From: Pelecanus crispus
Lineage: Eukaryota; Chordata; Aves; Pelecaniformes; Pelecanidae
NCBI RefSeq assembly: GCF_030463565.1
Contig: NC_134660.1
Span: forward strand, 911,001 to 975,000
Length of the DNA: 64,000 nt
Direction: 5' to 3'
How positions within the stretch are numbered: position 1 is the stretch's first letter; each line of letters opens with the position of its first letter. This document shows, piece by piece, positions 19,030-62,745 of the stretch. A model generated the notes under the pieces. It worked only from the letters and a program-made list of their open reading frames with translations, made no database searches and was not told the origin of the DNA. A program made the position numbers and the translations under genes.

Positions 19030-19268
19030 GTAAAATGTTCAACGGTTTGTTGGCAACTTTCTTCAGAAGAATAATTACTACTGCTCTGCTCTTGCCGTAA
19101 TACCAGAATTCTGTGACCTACGCATCAGTGCTAAACACCAGCAGAGAATCATATTTTGTTCATTCTGTGTAGATGGAACAGGCATCGGTCTTGAGAGTCC
19201 ATCCTGATGTACAGCTGCTCGCTTGGTTTTCTGGGATTAAAGGTGCTCAATGAATCAGGGCCCCCCAA

Positions 19269-26551
<7,283 letters not shown>

Positions 26552-39441: not shown

Positions 39442-39775
39442 CTTTGGGGGAGCATTTGTGCATTTTTGGGGGGAGCATTTGTGTATTTTGGGGGAACATT
39501 TGTGCATTTTTTGGGGGGAGCATTTGTATATTTTTGGGGGGAGCATTTGTATATTTTTGGGGGGAGCATTTGTCCATTTTTGGGGAGCATTTGTCCATTT
39601 TTGGGGGGAGCATTTGCATTTTGGGGGGGAGCATTTGCATTTTTGGGGGGAGCATTTGCATATTTTGGGGGAGCATTTGTGCATTTTTTGGGGAACATTT
39701 GTGCATTTTTTGGGGACCATTTGTCCATTTTTGGGGGGAGCATTTGTCCATTTTTGGGAGCATTTGTGCAATTTT
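39442..39775. repeat. Minisatellite, 15 copies of a 19-24 bp unit
   Basis: The core is GGGGGGAGCATTTG followed by a variable (T)(G/C/A)(C/T)ATTTTT. The segment CATTTG occurs 15 times. Copies differ in G-run and T-run length, so the unit drifts through all frames; this is why three overlapping plus-strand frames stay open across it. No protein is implied. It sits 0.2-0.3 kb upstream of the probable PHOSPHO1 promoter. Confidence 0.93.
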
Positions 39776-39879
39776 TTGCTCCCCCCCCCCCCGCTGCGCT
39801 CGCCCCTTGTTTTGGGGCAGAAGCCCCCCAGGTCCCAGACCCGCTCCAGGCGCTGGCCGGGGGGGGGGGAGCGCTCGTC

Positions 39880-44770: not shown

Positions 44771-46489
44771 GTCAGTGCCATTCTCACCCATCTTATCCTC
44801 TCTGCGCGGGGCTGTCCCCTCTCTTCCCAGGGTCAGGGAGCAGGATTTGGGTCCCCATCCTGCAAACCTCTGTCCGCAAGTGGCGCAGGAGCTGCCGGGA
44901 GGGGAGCAGGTGCTGCTGGGGCCGTCGTGGCTTTGGCCGAGGGGAGGGGGTGGGCACCGGGAGCCCGGGCTGGGGCTCACCGGCTTCGCACCGTGTTGGC
45001 AAAGCGGGTTTACTTTGGTTTTAGAGCAGGGCAGGAGGCGGCTCTGAGTTATCCCAGGCTTCTCAGGAGCCCGCGGAGCCCAACCCAGAGGGAAACTGCA
45101 TCCAGGTGATGGAGCAAAAATCAGCCTGCAAACTGGTTTCCTTTGTTGGGAAGAGCCAGACTTGTCCTGGCAGCAAGAGGGGTCTGCAGGGACACAGACC
45201 CCTTCTCAGGGGTGGGACAGGAGCAGGTTGGGGAGTAGACACCCCCTCCCCCCCAAGGACCCTCCCTGCGCAAGTCTAGTCTACCCTTGATTGGCTTAGA
45301 GTAGACTTGGTAGTGTAGGTTAATGGTTGGACTGGATGATCTTAAAGGTCTTTTCCAACCTAAACGATTCGATGATTCTATGAAAACACCCCGAGGCGCG
45401 TGCTCTCCCCGCGTCCCTTGGGAGGACGCGTGCGGCCCTAGCTCAGCACAGTGACCGCCATGACTGCAGGAACGGGATTAGCGGTGACAAAATGATCTCT
45501 TTATAGGCAGGATAAATGCCTTAGGGCCGGGGCTGAGGTATGTCAGCAGGGGATTAGCCCCCCGCAAGCCCAGCTGGGCTAGTAAGCTGCCTGTGGGCAA
45601 GGTAGCCAAGGAGCATTGCTCTGCGGGGCTGGCAGCCTCTTGCTGCTGTGGTTGCCACCATCACTGTGCCGGGGCCGAAGCACCGTGCCTTGAACTAATG
45701 GCTGGGTGTTACCCTTCCGCCTCACAGGGTGTTGGTATGGCCAGCCCCCGGCCTCCCAAATACCTCCTCGTCTTCGATTTCGACGAGACCATCATCAACG
45801 AGAACAGCGATGACTCCATCGTCCGAGCAGCGCCGGGGCAGGCGCTTCCGGAGCACATCCGACAGACCTTCCGCGAGGGCTTCTACAACGAGTACATGCA
45901 GCGCGTCCTGGCGTACATGGGGGACCAGGGAGTCAAGATGGGCGACTTCAAGACTGTCTACGAGAACATCCCCCTGTCCCCTGGCATGCCGGACCTCTTC
46001 CAGTTCCTCTCCAAGAACCATGAGCTCTTCGAGATCATCCTCATCTCCGACGCCAACATGTTCGGCATCGAGTGCAATCTGAGGGCAGCTGGTTTCTACT
46101 CCCTCTTCCGCAAGATCTTCAGCAACCCGTCCAGCTTTGACAAGAAGGGGTACTTCACCCTGGGGCCCTACCACAGCCACAAGTGCCTTGACTGCCCGGC
46201 CAACATGTGCAAACGCAAAATCCTGACGGAGTACCTGGCCGAGAGAGCCCAGGAGGAGGTGGAGTTCGAGAGGGTCTTCTACGTGGGAGATGGTGCCAAT
46301 GACTTCTGCCCTTCCGTGACTTTGACTTCCGCCGATGTGGCTTTCCCGCGGAAGGGCTACCCCATGCACCGCATGACGCAAGAGATGGAGAAGCAGCAGC
46401 CTGGAGCCTTCCAGGCCACTGTCGTCCCCTGGGAGTCGGCTGCAGAGGTCGCCCGCTATCTCCAGGAGGTCCTCAAGAAGAAGTGTTGA
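44726..46489 (+). CDS. PHOSPHO1: Phosphoethanolamine/phosphocholine phosphatase (two coding exons, 268 aa)
   Basis: A HAD-superfamily phosphatase that releases inorganic phosphate from phosphoethanolamine and phosphocholine inside matrix vesicles, starting mineralisation of cartilage and bone. Exons: 44726-44770 (15 codons, donor AAG|GTCAGT) and 45728-46489 (acceptor CGCCTCACAG, stop TGA), joined in phase 0. The short exon encodes [15 protein letters not shown], equal in length to the human MSGCFPVSGLRCLSR and sharing M, C4, G9-L10 and C12-L13. With it, the catalytic residues fall on the numbers known for the human enzyme: D32 and D34 in FDFDET, D43, D123 in LISDAN and D203 in GDGAND. Without it the protein would start at the internal Met (codon 19) or at the in-frame intronic ATG at 45698. 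Chicken PHOSPHO1 is, from memory, also 268 aa. Confidence 0.95.
45270..45383 (+). mobile_element. CR1 LINE 3' tail fragment in PHOSPHO1 intron 2
   Basis: The plus strand reads TTGGACTGGATGATCTTAAA, then GGTCTTTTCCAACC and a terminal GATTCGATGATTCTATGA, which is the diagnostic 3' end of CR1 with its ATTCTATGA tail. The left boundary is approximate. It lies 345 bases before the main coding exon of PHOSPHO1, in the same orientation as the gene. Confidence 0.9.
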
Positions 46490-48591: not shown

Positions 48592-51500
48592 TCAGAAGGG
48601 CTCCACGTAATTGCCGGGGAAGAAACCGGCTTCCTCGCCCATGACGCCCTCGCACCAGCCGTCCGAGTACCGCCGCATGATGAAGAGGAGGGCGCCGGGC
48701 TGGAAGGAGAGCTCGTTGTCCTTCTGCCGCGTGTAGGGGTACAGGGCCACCACTGCCAGAGGAGGGAGAGGGGCCGTGGAGGCCAGCGCAGAGGACGGGC
48801 CGCCACCGGGAAGGGTGGGACCTGAGCAGAGCACGGCATCGCTCGCCGTCCCAGCCCTGGCCGGTGCCGGGGCAGAGTGGGGCCCTCGGTGCCATGGTCG
48901 CGGGCAGGGGCTCAACCCAAAGCACCACGGCGGAGAGATCGGGGGGACGTGGGGAGCCACCGTACCTTTCTCCAGGTAGTTCTCCGGGACCCAGGGGGGG
49001 TCCTCTGCGGCAGGCGGCAGCGGTGGGGCCAAATCCTCAAAGTTGGGCAAAGCTGGCGGTGATGGCGGTGGCAGCTCCAGGTCATCGGGGGCTGCAAAAC
49101 CCCGGCAAAATCGATGTGGGACGAAGGGCTCCATGGGGAGCGGAGGCCATGTGCAGCCCCCACCTCCCCACAGCCCCCCACGCTGAGCAGCCCCGGCCGC
49201 CGAGCGCTCACCTGGGGGCAGGAGGTCCAGCGGGGGCATGGCCAGGTCCCCTGGCAGTGGCAGGGGCAGGTCCCGGGGAGAGGCGGGGGCGGCGGGACGG
49301 CAGCCGCAGGCACTGGGGATGGTCCTGGCAGGGAGCTGAGCAGCGGGGGTGCGGGGATGCCTTCACCGGGGGCTGCGGGGGCTCCGCTGGAGCTGAGGGG
49401 GAGGAGTGGCGGTGGCTGGGGGCTGGCTCTGCCCCCCACTCTTGGAACACAGAGGCTTGCCCCATGCCAGGACGGGGTGCCACTTGCTGCGGCCACCGCA
49501 GGCAGGATACCCCAGCATCTGCGTGCATACCCATTCAAGCCCTTCCCCACTCTGTGCCTCAGTTTCCCCACTGGGGACCTTCTCTTGTACGGGATTTTGC
49601 TCTAGAAGTAAGCACTGCCCGGGGCAGCGAATCTCCCACTCCCAAACCCCGAATTTTTCACCAACCCCCTTTGCAGCAGAACCTTCCCCGAGCAGCGGGG
49701 TGACGGTGGCTGCCCCCGGGCCCTCCTGACCCCCCGGGCAGCGCCGGTACCTGATGGATGTCAGTGAGGAGGTGGAGGAGGCCGCAGAGAGCTTGTCCTC
49801 AGGAACCATGGGCGGCTGGATGGGCTCGGGGACGCGGGTGCTTCTCCTGCGGGCAGAGCGGCCGCTGAGCCCCCAGCCCGGCCGGCGGCTCGGCACGGGG
49901 ATGGGGATGGGACCCCGATGGCAGCAGCACCGGGCAAGCCCGTGGTGCACCTCGTGGCTCTGTCCCTGCCATCATCGCCCACTCGGTGACACAAAGGCAA
50001 AGCCCCCGACCCCGCAGCCTCACCCCAGGGTGCCTGCAGCCTGCGCCGCCGACTTGATCCCCTTCCGAGCCAGGGTGCCCGTGCGGGACAGCTGGGTGCT
50101 GTGGTCCTGTGGGCACAGGGAGACACGGAGAGGCGATGGGTGAGGGCCGCCGCAGCCCCCCCCCCAACTCATTGCACCCCAGAGGGCTGTGACCCCCCCG
50201 CCGTGGGCAGCAGCACCCCGAGCTCTCCACCGGCCCGCCCGCCGGGAGCAGCCGAGCGGAAGGAGCCGCCAGCGCTGCAGCGCGGAGGCGGCCGCCACCG
50301 TGGGAACCACGGCCCCAGTGCCACCACTTCCCCTCCGGCCCCACGGCGGCTTCGCCGGGGGCTCGCGCCTGCGAGGCTGCGAACCCCCCCCCCCGCCACG
50401 GGCGCCTTCCTGCGCGGGCGGTTTTGGTGCTGAGAAAGAAACCGTGGGGGTGAGAGCGTCACAGCTCAGCACCGGCCCCAGCGGCGCTGATGGCCTCTGC
50501 TGAGCAGCATGTGCCTCGGTTTCCCTTTCACCGTGTGCCCCCTCCCCACGCTGGCTCCACCGAGCCCCAGTGGGGTGAGTCCCGGGGTGGGCTGCGGGGC
50601 ACAGACAGACCCTGCTTCTCCACTGAGGAGGGTTTTGAGCCCACCTGTGCACCCACCAGTGCAACCCTGGGGGCAGCAGGGACCGAGGAAGCCCATCCAA
50701 GCCCCCTCGCCCCGTGGGACATCTTCCAAGCCCTGGGCTGACCTTTATGCCGTGGCCGATGTCATCCAGGACACTGAAGTTGAGGGGTTTCCTGTAGTAG
50801 GGCTCCAGGCAGGGCGGGCTGGCGGGGGGGATGATCTTCTGGTAGGACGGGAACCTCTTGCTGACGGTCAACGAGCCGATCTCCTGGCGAGCCACCTTCT
50901 CCTTGTGCACGTCAACCCTCTGCAGAGATAGCGCTGTCCCCACCGTCCCATCCCGGGCTCTCCTCACCTCCCGCTGCCACCTCCAAATCCCACCACCCTT
51001 CCCAGACCTGTCTCCCCGCCTGCAAGGGAAGGGGCCGTAGGGAAGGCTCAGGATTGAGCCTGAACCCCCCGGCCTGGCCACAGTCTCGGGGCAGGTCCTG
51101 CTCTGCTCCGTCACAGCAGGGCGAGCGATGCCCTCGATGCCACCACACTGGATCTGGCCCTTCGTAAAGCAGGGGACGGGGGGACAGGGCAGTGGCAGGG
51201 GGTGCACGAGCCTCAGCTGCCCGTAAGCTGTTTTCCTACTGCTTCCAGCATGACCATGGGGTCCTGTCTCCTCCCATGGCTGGAAAGGTTCCAGGCGGCT
51301 TCCAAGTGCTGGGAAGAGGGTGGGTGGCCACGGGACGCCGCATCAGTGTCCCTAAGCCCTGGGAGGACGAGGCCTTCAGCAAGAGCAGAGCATTGCAGCC
51401 AGGCCAACACGCCGAGCCCCATCACTCCACTTTGGCTCCTCTGAGGTTTCCTGGGCAGTTCCTATGGTCTGCTCCGCTGGGATTTGCGAGTGCCCAGACT

Positions 51501-53046
51501 GGGACAACAACCCAGAGCCCAGTTTCCCAGCCCCATGACATGTTGGGTGACGCCCATCAGCACCCAAGGAGATGGTCTTGCATTTCCACGGCAAAGTGAC
51601 GCTACAGGTGCTGACGGGCTCGTCAAGCCATGGGTAAGGAGGGTCTTCAGCCCCTTCGAGCTGCCCAAACCCCCTTTCCCAGAGCCCACACCCCTCTCAG
51701 GACCCAAACCCCAGTTGGAGGATGGTCCCACCTGGGCCACGCAGCGGACGTCGGCCTCCACCTTCCGCAGCTCGGCTGCCTGCAGGTCCAGCAGCCGGAC
51801 GAAGGCAGTGGCCAGGCTGCTGACCTGGTACGTCACGCTGGCCAGGGACTGCGTGCTCAGCGCCATCGTCTCCTCCAGCGCCTTCCGCTTGTCACTTGCC
51901 TGGAAGGGGAAACTCAGCGGGTGGGACAAGCCACCCCGTGCAGCCACCGTTGCCCTCCATCTTCACGCTGGAGTCACACGGTAGCAAAGATGCTTCCTTC
52001 TGCTTTCCAAATGCATCAAACTTCCCCTGGCTCCGCCGGCAGGACACACGGACACCCATTAGGCAGCGGTGCTCGGCTTTTCCAGCACTGGGGATTCACC
52101 ATGATTCCCCCCTGGGATGCTGCCGTTTCGGCAGGTGCCGGAGCCGAGCGCCTGGCTCAGCCTCCTGTCACCCCTGGGGACAGCCGGCCACGCCACAGCC
52201 GTGCTGGGGACGGCGTCTCAGTTCTTTGAATAGTTCAGCCCGTTTCCCCTTCAGCTCCGCGCCAGCGGGTCCAGCCCCTTGGGAGCAGTCTGGCTCGAGG
52301 CAGCGAGGCCACGGATGCGGGCTCTGCCGAGCGCCCAGGGACCCCTCTGGCCAAGACCCCCTCCCCAGCAAACAGGGCCAGAACAAGCCCTTCCCCTCCT
52401 ATTTCATCCCAAAAGCTCCTGCCCCCCTCTTCCCTCGGGGGGGGCAGGCAGGGACGAGGAGGAGGAGGGGAGCTGGCAGCAGCAGAGCTTCACGCTCGCT
52501 CTGCGTGCGCAGGCACCCGGCTCGCCTCTGCCCTGCCAGGAGGCACCTCCGAAACCCTGGGGACAGCCCCGGCAGGGCTGGCGTCCCTGGTCCCCTCCCA
52601 GGGCTTCTCCAGAGGCACCGAACTGCCGGAGGACCCTCCCTTCGCCCCAAACCCCACCCTGAGAGCTGAGCAGAAAAGCCGCTGTCGAGCAAGAGGGGAA
52701 AAGGAGGCACGAGAAAAAAAAAAATACGAACGGTGGTGTGCAATGCGCGGTAGGAAGCTAGCAGGGATGCTCAGGCTCCCGTCTCCGCGGGCAGAGCCTT
52801 CACCGTCACCCACCAGGACACCTCCGGGCCCACCGTCTCACCAGGGCTCCCCGCTGCCTCCAGCATCACGCCCAGCCCCAAAGCCGCAGCTCGCCCCGCG
52901 ATGTCCCCAGTCGTACCCGTCCCCCTCACCTGCAGGTAGTTGCTCTCGCAGTAGTCGGCGACGCGGTGGAGGTTGCTGTGGTGGTCGCGCAGGACCTGTC
53001 GGCCCGCCGGGATGTCGTGCTGCTGCAGCTGCTCCAGCTCCGACAT
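48592..53046 (-). CDS. ABI3: ABI family member 3 (eight coding exons)
   Basis: An adaptor of the WAVE regulatory complex that controls actin branching; in mammals it is prominent in microglia and other myeloid cells. Exons in transcript order: 53046-52930, 51899-51732, 50919-50743, 50106-50024, 49846-49751, 49392-49212, 49091-48966 and 48752-48592. Junctions are GT-AG. Exons 1-3 (residues 1-154) form the coiled-coil WAVE-binding part; exon 3 ends with the conserved PLNF.VLDDIGHGIK and exon 4 continues the homeo-domain homologous region with STQLSRTGTL.RK. A serine-rich linker and Pro-rich stretch follow, then a C-terminal SH3 domain (ALYPYTRQKDNELSF, RRYSDGWCEG, GFFPGNYVEP). The start is the only ATG upstream of the conserved N-terminus. 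Summed exons give 1109 bases, one short of a whole frame, because exon 6 does not keep phase; with one extra base the product would be 369 aa against 366 in human. Confidence 0.93.
49212..49392 (-). CDS. ABI3: ABI3 exon 6, reading-frame conflict
   Basis: The acceptor CTCCCCCTCAG and donor CCCAG|GTGAGC are good. Entered in phase from exon 5, the first part reads SSSGAPAAPGEGIPAPPLLS, then a PPPPP stretch, resembling the human Pro-rich linker. The last part only resembles human (DLPLPLPGDLAMPPLDLLPP) in a different frame, and that second frame is the one exon 7 needs. One more base in the C-runs at about 49267-49292 would reconcile them. Alternatively an internal acceptor (CTGCCAG, exon from 49324) keeps the frame and gives 346 aa, at the price of a poorly conserved segment. 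Confidence 0.7.
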
Positions 53047-58189: not shown

Positions 58190-58760
58190 GCCCGGCTCCT
58201 GGGCCAAAGCAGCGCGCCCGGGCCTAATCCGGGGCGATAACGGGGATGCAGCCGGGTTTCCTGCGCTCGGAGGGGATTGACCGCGTTAAGCGATGTTAAA
58301 CGGCTGGAAGCCTGCGTCAGAGCCGGCTAAGCCGCTGCTGAAGGGATTCGGGACGCTGCTGGCCCAAGGGCGGCTTAAGCCGGGGGTGGGCCCGTCTCCC
58401 CGAGGCCTCTCACACCGCCCACCCGTGTCCGCGAAGCCGCCGCGGCGAGGCCCTGAGCTCGGCAGGGCCGGTATGAGGCGGAGGCGTCGCTACGCCAATA
58501 AGGCGGTGGTAGGCGGAGCGGAGAGTGCTTCCAGCCAATAGCAGCGCAGGGAGGAGAGATTGTCACCCCCCGCGCCCAATCAACGCCGGCATCTAGGAGG
58601 GCGCCCACCGCCCTCTGCCCCCCTCCGCATGCGCAGTGAAGCGCCGGTGCCCCCGCACAAAATGGAGGCCGGCGGGGGCTGGGTGGGCGCCGGGGCGACG
58701 CCCGGTGCTGCTCGCCGCGCTCCGGTTTGCAGCCGCCTCCCGCCGCGTTACCGGAGCGGC
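58190..58760. promoter_or_regulatory. Orphan CpG island with three CCAAT boxes
   Basis: CpG-dense sequence with CCAAT at about 58495 (GCCAATAAG), 58535 (GCCAATAGC) and 58576 (CCCAATCAA), an NRF1-like GCATGCGCA at 58627-58635 and a YY1-like AAAATGGAGGC near 58660. The arrangement is that of a functional RNA polymerase II promoter reading rightwards, yet no gene with recognisable coding sequence follows; the tRNA gene on the opposite strand starts 140 bases beyond. It may serve an unannotated non-coding transcript or an open-chromatin domain shared with the tRNA. Confidence 0.55.
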
Positions 58761-58798
58761 GGCGGACGCCAAAAAAAAAAAAAAAAAAAGAAAAGGGG

Positions 58799-58820
58799 AA
58801 AAAAAAAAAAAAAAAAAAAA
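58799..58820 (-). terminator. RNA polymerase III poly-T terminator
   Basis: On the tRNA strand 22 T residues begin six bases after the tRNA 3' end; a further T-run follows (58771-58789). This exceeds the four Ts needed by RNA polymerase III. Confidence 0.9.
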
Positions 58821-58826
58821 GCTACG

Positions 58827-58898
58827 AGGTCCCACCGAGATTTGAACTCGGATCGCTGGATTCAAAGTCCAGAGTGCTAACCATTACACCATGGGACC
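58827..58898 (-). tRNA. tRNA-Gln, anticodon UUG
   Basis: The 72-base gene starts GGTCCCATGG at 58898 and ends GGTGGGACC plus discriminator T at 58827. The acceptor stem GGTCCCA pairs with TGGGACC. The anticodon loop is CTTTGAA with anticodon TTG at 58865-58863 (tRNA position 34-36). The T arm carries GAGTTCAAATCTC (B box) and the D arm TGTAATGGTTAGCAC (A box). There is no intron, and CCA is not encoded, as in all eukaryotic tRNA genes. From memory the sequence equals the human tRNA-Gln-TTG. An intact fold and terminator indicate an active gene. Confidence 0.98.
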
Positions 58899-58984
58899 GC
58901 TGGGTGCAGATTTGGCTGCCGCGCTCTTACTCTATCCTACCGCTGCCCACGGGGGACCGTCCCGTGTCCTCCCCCCTCGCCGTG

Positions 58985-59084
58985 GGCAGCCTCCGGACCC
59001 TCCCGGGGGGTTCAAGGGCACCGAGAGCGACCGGCCGGTCGCTCTCGGTGCCCTTGAACCCCCCGGGAGGGTCCGGAGGCTGCC
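58985..59084. repeat. Perfect 100-bp palindrome without spacer
   Basis: The left arm 58985-59034 (beginning GGCAGCCTCCGGACCC) and right arm 59035-59084 are exact reverse complements; I checked all 50 pairs and symmetry breaks at the next base on each side. The centre is GACCGGCCGGTC. A further 11-base partner of the left edge (GCTGCCCACGG, 58942-58952) lies just upstream. Because of the symmetry the two strands encode the same peptide, so frames here are mirror images and not genes. Confidence 0.97.
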
Positions 59085-59295
59085 GAGAGGTTGCGGAGCT
59101 GCATCCCCGAGGAGGGGTTTGCAAAGGACCCATCCCGCGGGCAAGAAAATGGCATTAATTCCTCCTACAAACCCCATTAAATCACGGCCCCGGCCCCGTT
59201 TGGGTGCTACCGGCACCCAGGACAGACCGTAGCAGCCTTTGGGATCACCCCGAGCTTCGCCGCTGCCAGCCCCGCTCCTCAATACCCCCCCCCCC

Positions 59296-60475
59296 CTTTA
59301 TTTCTCTATTTTTTCCTTATTTCCCCCTTTTATTTCTCTATTTTTCCCTATTCCCCTTTATTTCCCTATTTTTCCCTATTCCCCTTTTATCTCCCCTTTA
59401 TTTCCCTATTTTTCCCTAGTCCCCTTTTATTTCCCCTTTATTTCCCTATTTTTTCCCTATTCCCCTTTTATCTCCCCTTTATTTCCCTATTTTTCCCTAT
59501 TCCTCTTTTATCTCCCCTTTATTTCCCTATTTTTTCCCTATTCCCCTTTTATCTCCCCTTTATTTCCCTATTTTTCCCTATTCCTCTTTTATCTCCCCTT
59601 TATTTCCCTATTTTTCCCTATTCCCCTTTTATCTCCCCTTTATTTCCCTATTTTTCCCTATTCCCCTTTATTTCCCTATTTTTCCCTAGTCCCCTTTTAT
59701 TTCCCCTTTATTCCCCTATTTTTCCCTATTTCCCTTTTATCTCCCCTTTATTTCCCTATTTTTCCCTATTCCTCTTTTATCTCCCCTTTATTTCCCTATT
59801 TTTCCCTATTCCCCTTTTATCTCCCCTTTATTTCCCTATTTTTCCCTATTCCCCTTTATTTCCCTATTTTTCCCTAGTCCCCTTTTATTTCCCCTTTATT
59901 CCCCTATTTTTCCCTATTTCCCTTTTATCTCCCCTTTATTTCCCTATTTTTCCCTAGTCCCCTTTTATTTCCCCTTTATTTCCCTATTTTTCCCTAGTCC
60001 CCTTTTATTTCCCCTTTATTTCCCTATTTTTTCCCTATTCCCCTTTTATCTCCCCTTTATTTCCCTATTTTTCCCTATTCCCCTTTATTTCCCTATTTTT
60101 CCCTATTCCCCTTTATTTCCCTATTTTTCCCTAGTCCCCTTTATTTCCCTATTTTTCCCTATTCCCCTTTTATTTCCCCTTTATTCCCCTATTTTTCCCT
60201 ATTTCCCTTTTATTTCCCCTTTATTTCCCTATTTTTTCCCTATTCCCCTTTTGTTTCCCCTTTATTTCTCTATTTTTTCCCCTATTCCCCCCTTTATTTC
60301 TCTATTTTTCCCTATTCCCCCTTATTCCTCTATTTTTTCCTTATTAACCCCCTCTATTTTTTCCTCTATTTTTCCCCTATTTCTCCCTTTATTTCTCTAT
60401 TTTTTTCTCTATGTTTCCCTATCCCTCCCCTTTATTTCTCTCCTTTTTTTTCCTATTTCCCCTTTCTCTGTTCCC
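59296..60475. repeat. Polypyrimidine tandem repeat, about 1.2 kb
   Basis: Almost pure C/T with scattered A on the plus strand. Building blocks are TTTCCCTATTTTTCCCTATT and CCCCTTTTATCTCCCCTTTA; they combine into units of about 28 and 40 bases, with recurring TAGTCCCC variants that give higher-order structure. The array becomes irregular after about 60240. Long plus-strand frames of Pro/Ile/Phe/Ser repeats are by-products. The mirror-rich pyrimidine strand could form triplex (H-DNA). Confidence 0.95.
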
Positions 60476-62163: not shown

Positions 62164-62745
62164 GCTGCCATGGTGCGGCAGAGCATCCCACCATACCCCG
62201 GCAGAGCATCCCACCGCATCCCACCATATCCCGGCAGAGCATCCCACCGTGGTGCGGCAGAGCATCCCACCATGCCCTGGCAGAGCATCCCACCGCGGTG
62301 CGGCAGAGCATCCCACCATGCCCTGGCAGAGCATCCCACCGCGGTGCGGCAGAGCATCCCACCATGCCCTGGCAGAGCATCCCACCATACCCCGGCTGAG
62401 CATCCCACCGCATCCCACCATATCCCGGCAGAGCATCCCACCGCGGTGGGGCAGAGCATCCCACCACGGTGGGGCAGAGCATCCCACCACGGCACAGCAG
62501 AGCATCCCACCATACCCTGGCAGAGTATCCCACCATGGTGCAGCAGAGCATCCCACCATACCCTGGCAGAGCATCCCACCGCGGTGCGGCAGAGCATCCC
62601 ACCATAACCTGGCAGAGCATCCCACCATGCCCCGGCAGAGCATCCCACCGCGGTGCGGCAGAGCATCCCACCATGCCCCAGCAGAGCATCCCACCGCGGT
62701 GCGGCAGAGCAGCCCACCGCGGTGCAGCAGAGCAGCCCGCCGCCA
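62164..62745. repeat. Minisatellite, about 25 copies of a 23-bp unit
   Basis: The unit is GGCAGAGCATCCCACCRYRSY with variable last bases (CCGCGGTGC, CCATGCCCT or CCATACCCC types). The compressed variant CATCCCACCGCATCCCACC occurs at 62207 and again at 62401, 194 bases apart, showing a higher-order duplication. The 23-base unit is not a multiple of three, so it keeps several frames open on both strands, giving apparent proteins of up to about 340 codons that are artefacts. Confidence 0.95.

Follow-up and report, generated by a model that had tools for sequence, protein, structure and literature searches.

How does a vertebrate genome come to hold 100 bp in which every base of one half is answered by its complement in the other, with nothing between the two, and is such a structure a recent mutation, a maintained element or an error of assembly? 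These questions are raised by positions 58985–59084 of the 64,000-base stretch of Pelecanus crispus DNA analysed here (referred to as the window).

Geometry, rarity and uniqueness of the palindrome

The left arm (58985–59034, plus strand) comprises 50 bp with a GC content of 76 % and five CpG dinucleotides, and the right arm (59035–59084, minus strand) is its exact reverse complement, such that all 50 of 50 pairs match, with 0 mismatches and a spacer of 0 nt. The full palindrome is therefore also 76 % GC and carries ten CpGs. Its axis, as read from the sequence and assigned to neither strand, lies in the motif GACCGG|CCGGTC (59029–59040). A search of the 64,000 bases for perfect spacerless palindromes with arms of at least 5 bp returned 73 with arms of 5 bp, 19 with arms of 6 bp and seven with arms of 7 bp, whilst arms of 8, 10 and 50 bp were each found once. 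Under the assumption of independent bases, a palindrome with 50-bp arms is expected ∼5e-26 times at the composition of the window and ∼3e-24 times at local composition, and an exact reverse-complement copy lying this close is thus far beyond chance. If loops of up to 40 bases are admitted, the runner-up among the perfect inverted repeats of the window is a GC-rich hairpin at 2207–2286, which has perfect 22-bp arms and a loop of 36 bp, and is situated within a stretch of 73 % GC.

An earlier note on this DNA, made by inspection, had described a perfect 100-bp palindrome with no spacer in GC-rich, unique-looking sequence. The geometry proved to be exact, with the next longest spacerless arm reaching 10 bp, and the description of the sequence stands as well: using blastn, no second copy of the arm was found in the 64-kb window, where the second-best match covers 18 bp at 89 % (E-value 0.08). 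An origin from a prokaryote, virus or plasmid found no support: the 24-base core of the arm had 0 exact matches in a collection of viral contigs and 0 in one of genome contigs, and positions 58899–59284 had no match among plasmids at an E-value of 0.1. Bird genomes are not part of these collections, and the results are uninformative both on orthologues and on whether the palindrome is a mobile element.

According to a catalogue of the human genome cited in a review, spacerless palindromes that are near-perfect, with up to four mismatches permitted, number ∼180,000 above a length of 40 bp and 718 above 200 bp (PMC7999016). By these counts, a perfect 100-bp palindrome is probably uncommon, yet of a known sort. 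It shares near-perfect symmetry with the palindromic AT-rich repeats (PATRRs) described in the same review; however, these are several hundred bp long and >90 % AT, as opposed to 100 bp and 76 % GC, and we do not assign the palindrome to that class. None of the titles listed by our literature search dealt with this locus, which we do not take to mean that it is absent from print.

Position relative to the tRNA gene and the polypyrimidine array

The palindrome lies beside a tRNA-Gln gene with anticodon TTG (58826–58898, minus strand), recognized by ARAGORN and by Rfam (RF00005, 58827–58898, 70 bits). The 5′ end of the tRNA faces the palindrome across a gap of 86 bases (58899–58984), precisely the upstream distance given in the earlier note, which had also placed the palindrome between this gene and a polypyrimidine array. 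The latter placement is equally accurate, as the array begins ∼205–270 bp past the right arm; its start was put at 59289 by eye and at 59352 by Tandem Repeats Finder. The array itself is a pyrimidine-rich minisatellite of ∼1.1 kb (59289–60420), built from CCCCTTTATTTCCCTATTTTT-like units with a period of 40 and a higher-order period of 188.

On the other side of the tRNA gene, at its 3′ end, is an A-rich tract (58771–58820, plus strand; T-rich on the strand of the tRNA), in which A runs of 19 and 22 flank GAAAAGGGG and thereby give the strand of the tRNA a long tract of T. We consider this a likely Pol III terminator. The tract is at least 214 bp from the axis of the palindrome, and both it and the tRNA gene are treated here as context rather than as demonstrated components of a mechanism. 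A causal link between the palindrome and the neighbouring tRNA gene is possible.

Edges of the palindrome and the source of its arms

Pairing halts sharply at both edges of the palindrome, and the left and right flanks differ. This bears directly on whether the structure is an artefact, in which the consensus would have acquired a mirrored copy of one arm through a fold-back chimera or a polishing error. Molecules of this kind do exist: fold-back artefact reads are reported to make up ∼0.55–0.6 % of Oxford Nanopore genomic reads and to recur at the same places, with others cited in that report putting them at 1–4 % and sometimes at 20–30 % of reads (PMC12870357), and inverted-repeat chimeras are described as forming at end repair in short-read libraries (PMC10908179). 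In a fold-back read, however, the second half aligns to the stretch already covered by the first, in the opposite direction, and pairing should extend into the flank, whereas the pairing seen here ends at 50 bp. Because different sequence then follows on both sides, an artefactual molecule would need two novel junctions. At the example site presented in PMC12870357, moreover, 27 other reads lacked the breakpoint, and PacBio HiFi data yielded virtually no fold-back reads in the same report, although only three PacBio samples were included. The window contains no N, and long homopolymers and arrays are spanned, which suggests a long-read assembly. As the geometry is unlike that of a simple fold-back read, we consider an artefact unlikely.

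The flanks were then compared with the arm itself, in four alignments that used 60 bp of each flank and gave scores of 12–20. Against the right flank, the direct score was reached by 268 of 2000 shuffles and the inverted score by 46 of 2000; against the left flank, the corresponding numbers were 363 and 1871 of 2000. There was no long homology of the arms with the 60 bp on either side. Two further alignments addressed the tRNA gene as a source of the arm, an origin that we reject, with the best plus-strand match being 8 bp long (reached by 186 of 2000 shuffles) and the minus strand weaker still (1238 of 2000). With these six tests run together, none of the arm-to-flank similarities is convincing, and they do not pick out which arm is ancestral. 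Tandem Repeats Finder reported a tandem-like similarity over the right edge (59063–59102, period 20) with a score of 50, which equals the threshold of 50; this differs from the best direct alignment of arm to flank, i.e. the one reached by 268 of 2000 shuffles.

A further feature was noticed at the left edge, where an 11-bp inverted repeat is present. Its outer stem (58942–58952, plus strand) reads GCTGCCCACGG and contains GCTGCC, whilst its inner stem (58980–58990, minus strand) spans the edge, with 5 bp outside the palindrome and 6 bp inside. Only four of 2000 dinucleotide shuffles of the 86-bp flank reached a repeat of this length, compared with 1790 of 2000 for the best inverted repeat at the right edge, which is 3 bp long. 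This test was chosen post hoc, once the repeat had been seen. Furthermore, GCTGCC occurs four times within 58300–59500, and the match of the arm to the inverted left flank consists of GGCAGC alone, an ordinary six-base match that 1871 of 2000 shuffles equal. For these reasons the left-edge repeat is no more than suggestive, as a candidate landing microhomology. Microhomology at the points of a template switch is common but not required.

The edges also speak to the idea that a small mobile element of the foldback type (foldback/MITE) was inserted at the site. Beyond its palindromic shape nothing points in this direction; there is no target-site duplication other than 1 identical base, and the arm is single-copy in the 64-kb window. 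Taken together, the missing second copy and target-site duplication indicate that, as far as the window allows, the palindrome is not a dispersed or transposed element, and we reject this explanation as extremely unlikely.

Folding potential and function

As would be expected, the 100 bp have a pronounced capacity to fold, forming a hairpin of 48 pairs with a four-base loop at −121.5 kcal/mol (RNA parameters). Folded as DNA, the 151 nt at 58960–59110 reach −78.3 kcal/mol (z −13.6), and the 231 nt at 58930–59160 folded as RNA have a z-score of −13.4; in both cases 0 of 200 shuffles did as well. Such values might be read as the mark of a functional element, kept by selection or by repeated self-correction as a cruciform, as a palindrome that binds protein or as a hairpin RNA cut by Dicer. 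Consistent with open promoter DNA, and hence with that reading, CpG observed/expected is 0.93 over 58400–59284 compared with 0.58 for the whole window. The folding score, however, is a by-product that follows from the palindrome itself and is therefore no evidence of function. In addition, a scan of the whole window with Rfam returned nothing at gathering score except the tRNA, and the open frame at 58640–59158 (plus strand), which overlaps the palindrome, had no match in Pfam. The near-loopless 50-bp stem is also unlike a microRNA precursor. A role as a Dicer substrate, which had been raised in the earlier note, thus finds no support, and a functional element of any of these kinds appears to us very unlikely. 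Within the left arm a stretch reading GGTTCAAGGGC resembles, by eye, what we take to be the B-box motif of Pol III; no accompanying A-box was seen by eye.

Most likely, then, the palindrome is without function, and its consequences are expected to be mutational, namely the formation of a hairpin or cruciform, and instability.

Template switching as the probable origin

We consider it probable that the palindrome arose recently as an inverted duplication, generated by one short-range, reverse-oriented template switch. A polymerase copying a GC-rich, hairpin-prone stretch beside the tRNA gene, during either replication or repair, would have left its template at the axis and copied back ∼50 nt, from the newly made strand or from the opposite strand. 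It would then have returned, and a short stretch of homology (GGCAGC/GCTGCC) at the outer end may have served for its landing. Of the two arms, one would accordingly be ancestral and the other a templated copy. As a strand cannot fold back without a loop, the zero spacer calls for either an inter-strand switch at a fork or fold-back on an axis palindrome that already existed, and it makes simple self-priming, which would leave an open loop, less likely. A short palindrome at the axis (CCGGCCGG or similar) may have predated the event and so allowed fold-back; six short spacerless palindromes with arms of at least 4 bp are present in 783 bp of flank, such that potential axis seeds are common locally.

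Events of this kind have been catalogued in great apes. In the gold-standard set reported there, the copied fragment has a median length of 12 nt and a maximum of 128, 65.0 % of events lengthen the sequence, and perfect inverted repeats with the capacity to form hairpins are an implicit product near the switch (PMC7954356). The palindrome resembles these events in being a local reverse-complement copy, in its adjacent perfect inverted repeat and stable hairpin, and in the net lengthening that we presume; its 50 nt fall inside the reported 2->3 range. It differs in being longer than the median and GC-rich, and in its distance from runs of A or T. The same study reports poly(dA:dT) tracts to be enriched, as opposed to required, in the 150 nt around the first switch point, whereas the run of at least eight A or T closest to the axis of the palindrome lies at a distance of 214 bp, with none within 150 bp. 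Other points may likewise count against a template switch: a copy of 50 nt considerably exceeds the ape median, an inverted repeat comparable to that on the left is missing from the right edge, and the event is deduced from a single present-day sequence.

Template switching has also been proposed, by inference, as the origin of perfect stems at microRNA loci (PMC8794818). The likeness to the palindrome is that a perfect stem would arise in one step by reverse-complement copying; the differences are that the arms described here have no spacer and are known from DNA sequence alone. In yeast, the correction of a quasipalindrome to a palindrome ends in the same product, a perfect inverted repeat (PMC3820800), but at our locus there is no sign of an older, imperfect repeat.

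Alternatively, an older quasipalindrome might have been homogenized to perfection by a template switch, in which case the duplication itself may be old. The conversion of a near-perfect inverted repeat to a perfect one is described as a classical outcome of template switching (PMC7954356), and a weak inverted repeat of greater age could have left the core of the axis and the GGCAGC/GCTGCC ends behind as its remnants. Zero mismatches remain in the 50 pairs, however, and past the edges we saw, by eye and in an ungapped view, none of the weaker flank-to-flank pairing that a partly converted old repeat might show. We judge a converted quasipalindrome improbable and retain the single template switch as the better account of the locus. 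As such, the palindrome points to no new system but to a known kind of event.

Age of the proposed duplication

To put limits on when a single switch would have occurred, we used the absence of differences between the arms. The assumed rate of substitution is 2.3e-9 per site per year, at which the arms would be at most ∼13 My old (95 % bound) if all sites are treated uniformly and at most 4.7 My old if CpG sites change 10 times faster. At 1e-9 the bounds become 30 My and 10.7 My, and at 4.6e-9 they become 6.5 My and 2.3 My, respectively. Hence, with 0 of 50 pairs differing, the upper bound lies between 2.3 and 30 My when the assumed rate is varied from 1e-9 to 4.6e-9, although none of these bounds is valid if the arms correct each other. 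A value of 4.6e-9 is tabulated for the collared flycatcher, which, judging from the row for the herring in the same source, is apparently per generation (PMC5524536).

The earlier note had stated that a perfect copy is either very young, maintained or an artefact. Among these, youth is best supported, by the 0 mismatches in 50 pairs, and the artefact has been weighed above; maintenance finds no support. A version of the latter would have template switching recur where the tRNA gene and the GC-rich region upstream of it form a replication barrier, and thereby keep the palindrome perfect, making it self-repairing, much older than its zero mismatches suggest and perhaps transcribed as a long, perfect hairpin RNA. 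We regard this as highly improbable.

If real, the palindrome would represent a clean and datable inverted duplication, made in one step beside a tRNA gene and with arms that are still identical. Comparison with closely related species could then date a template switch, and the locus could serve to measure the rate at which the germ line of a vertebrate lets a perfect 50-bp palindrome decay or deletes it. It could also illustrate the way in which long and perfect hairpins, as raw material for hairpin RNAs, come into being.

Neighbouring genes and repeats

Six open frames of the window were scanned against Pfam, and four of the six were matched. The frame at 45488–46489 contains Put_Phosphatase (E-value 1.5e-100), that at 48592–49362 (minus strand) contains an SH3 domain (E-value 3.1e-11), and those at 19254–20336 and 25988–26551 contain C2H2 zinc fingers (E-value ∼2e-9 each); along with the frame that overlaps the palindrome, no Pfam match was obtained for that at 51462–51962 (minus strand). 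The matched neighbours presumably correspond to the vertebrate block ZNF652-PHOSPHO1-ABI3, near which a tRNA-Gln(TTG) is located on human 17q21.

Immediately downstream of the tRNA gene, positions 58400–58770 are CpG-rich, with a GC content of 74 % and a CpG observed/expected of 0.99. Motifs that we take by eye to be CCAAT-like and NRF1/YY1-like surround AAAATGGAGGC in this region, which is possibly a Pol II promoter.

Two further minisatellites were observed. One, at 62183–62738, has 23-bp units (GCATCCCACCATGCCCCGGCAGA) with higher-order periods of 46 and 69 bp, and several reading frames run open across the repeat on both strands. The other, at 39443–39776, is composed of 23/44-bp units (GGGGGAGCATTTGTGCATTTTTG), and here too long open frames cross the repeat on both strands.
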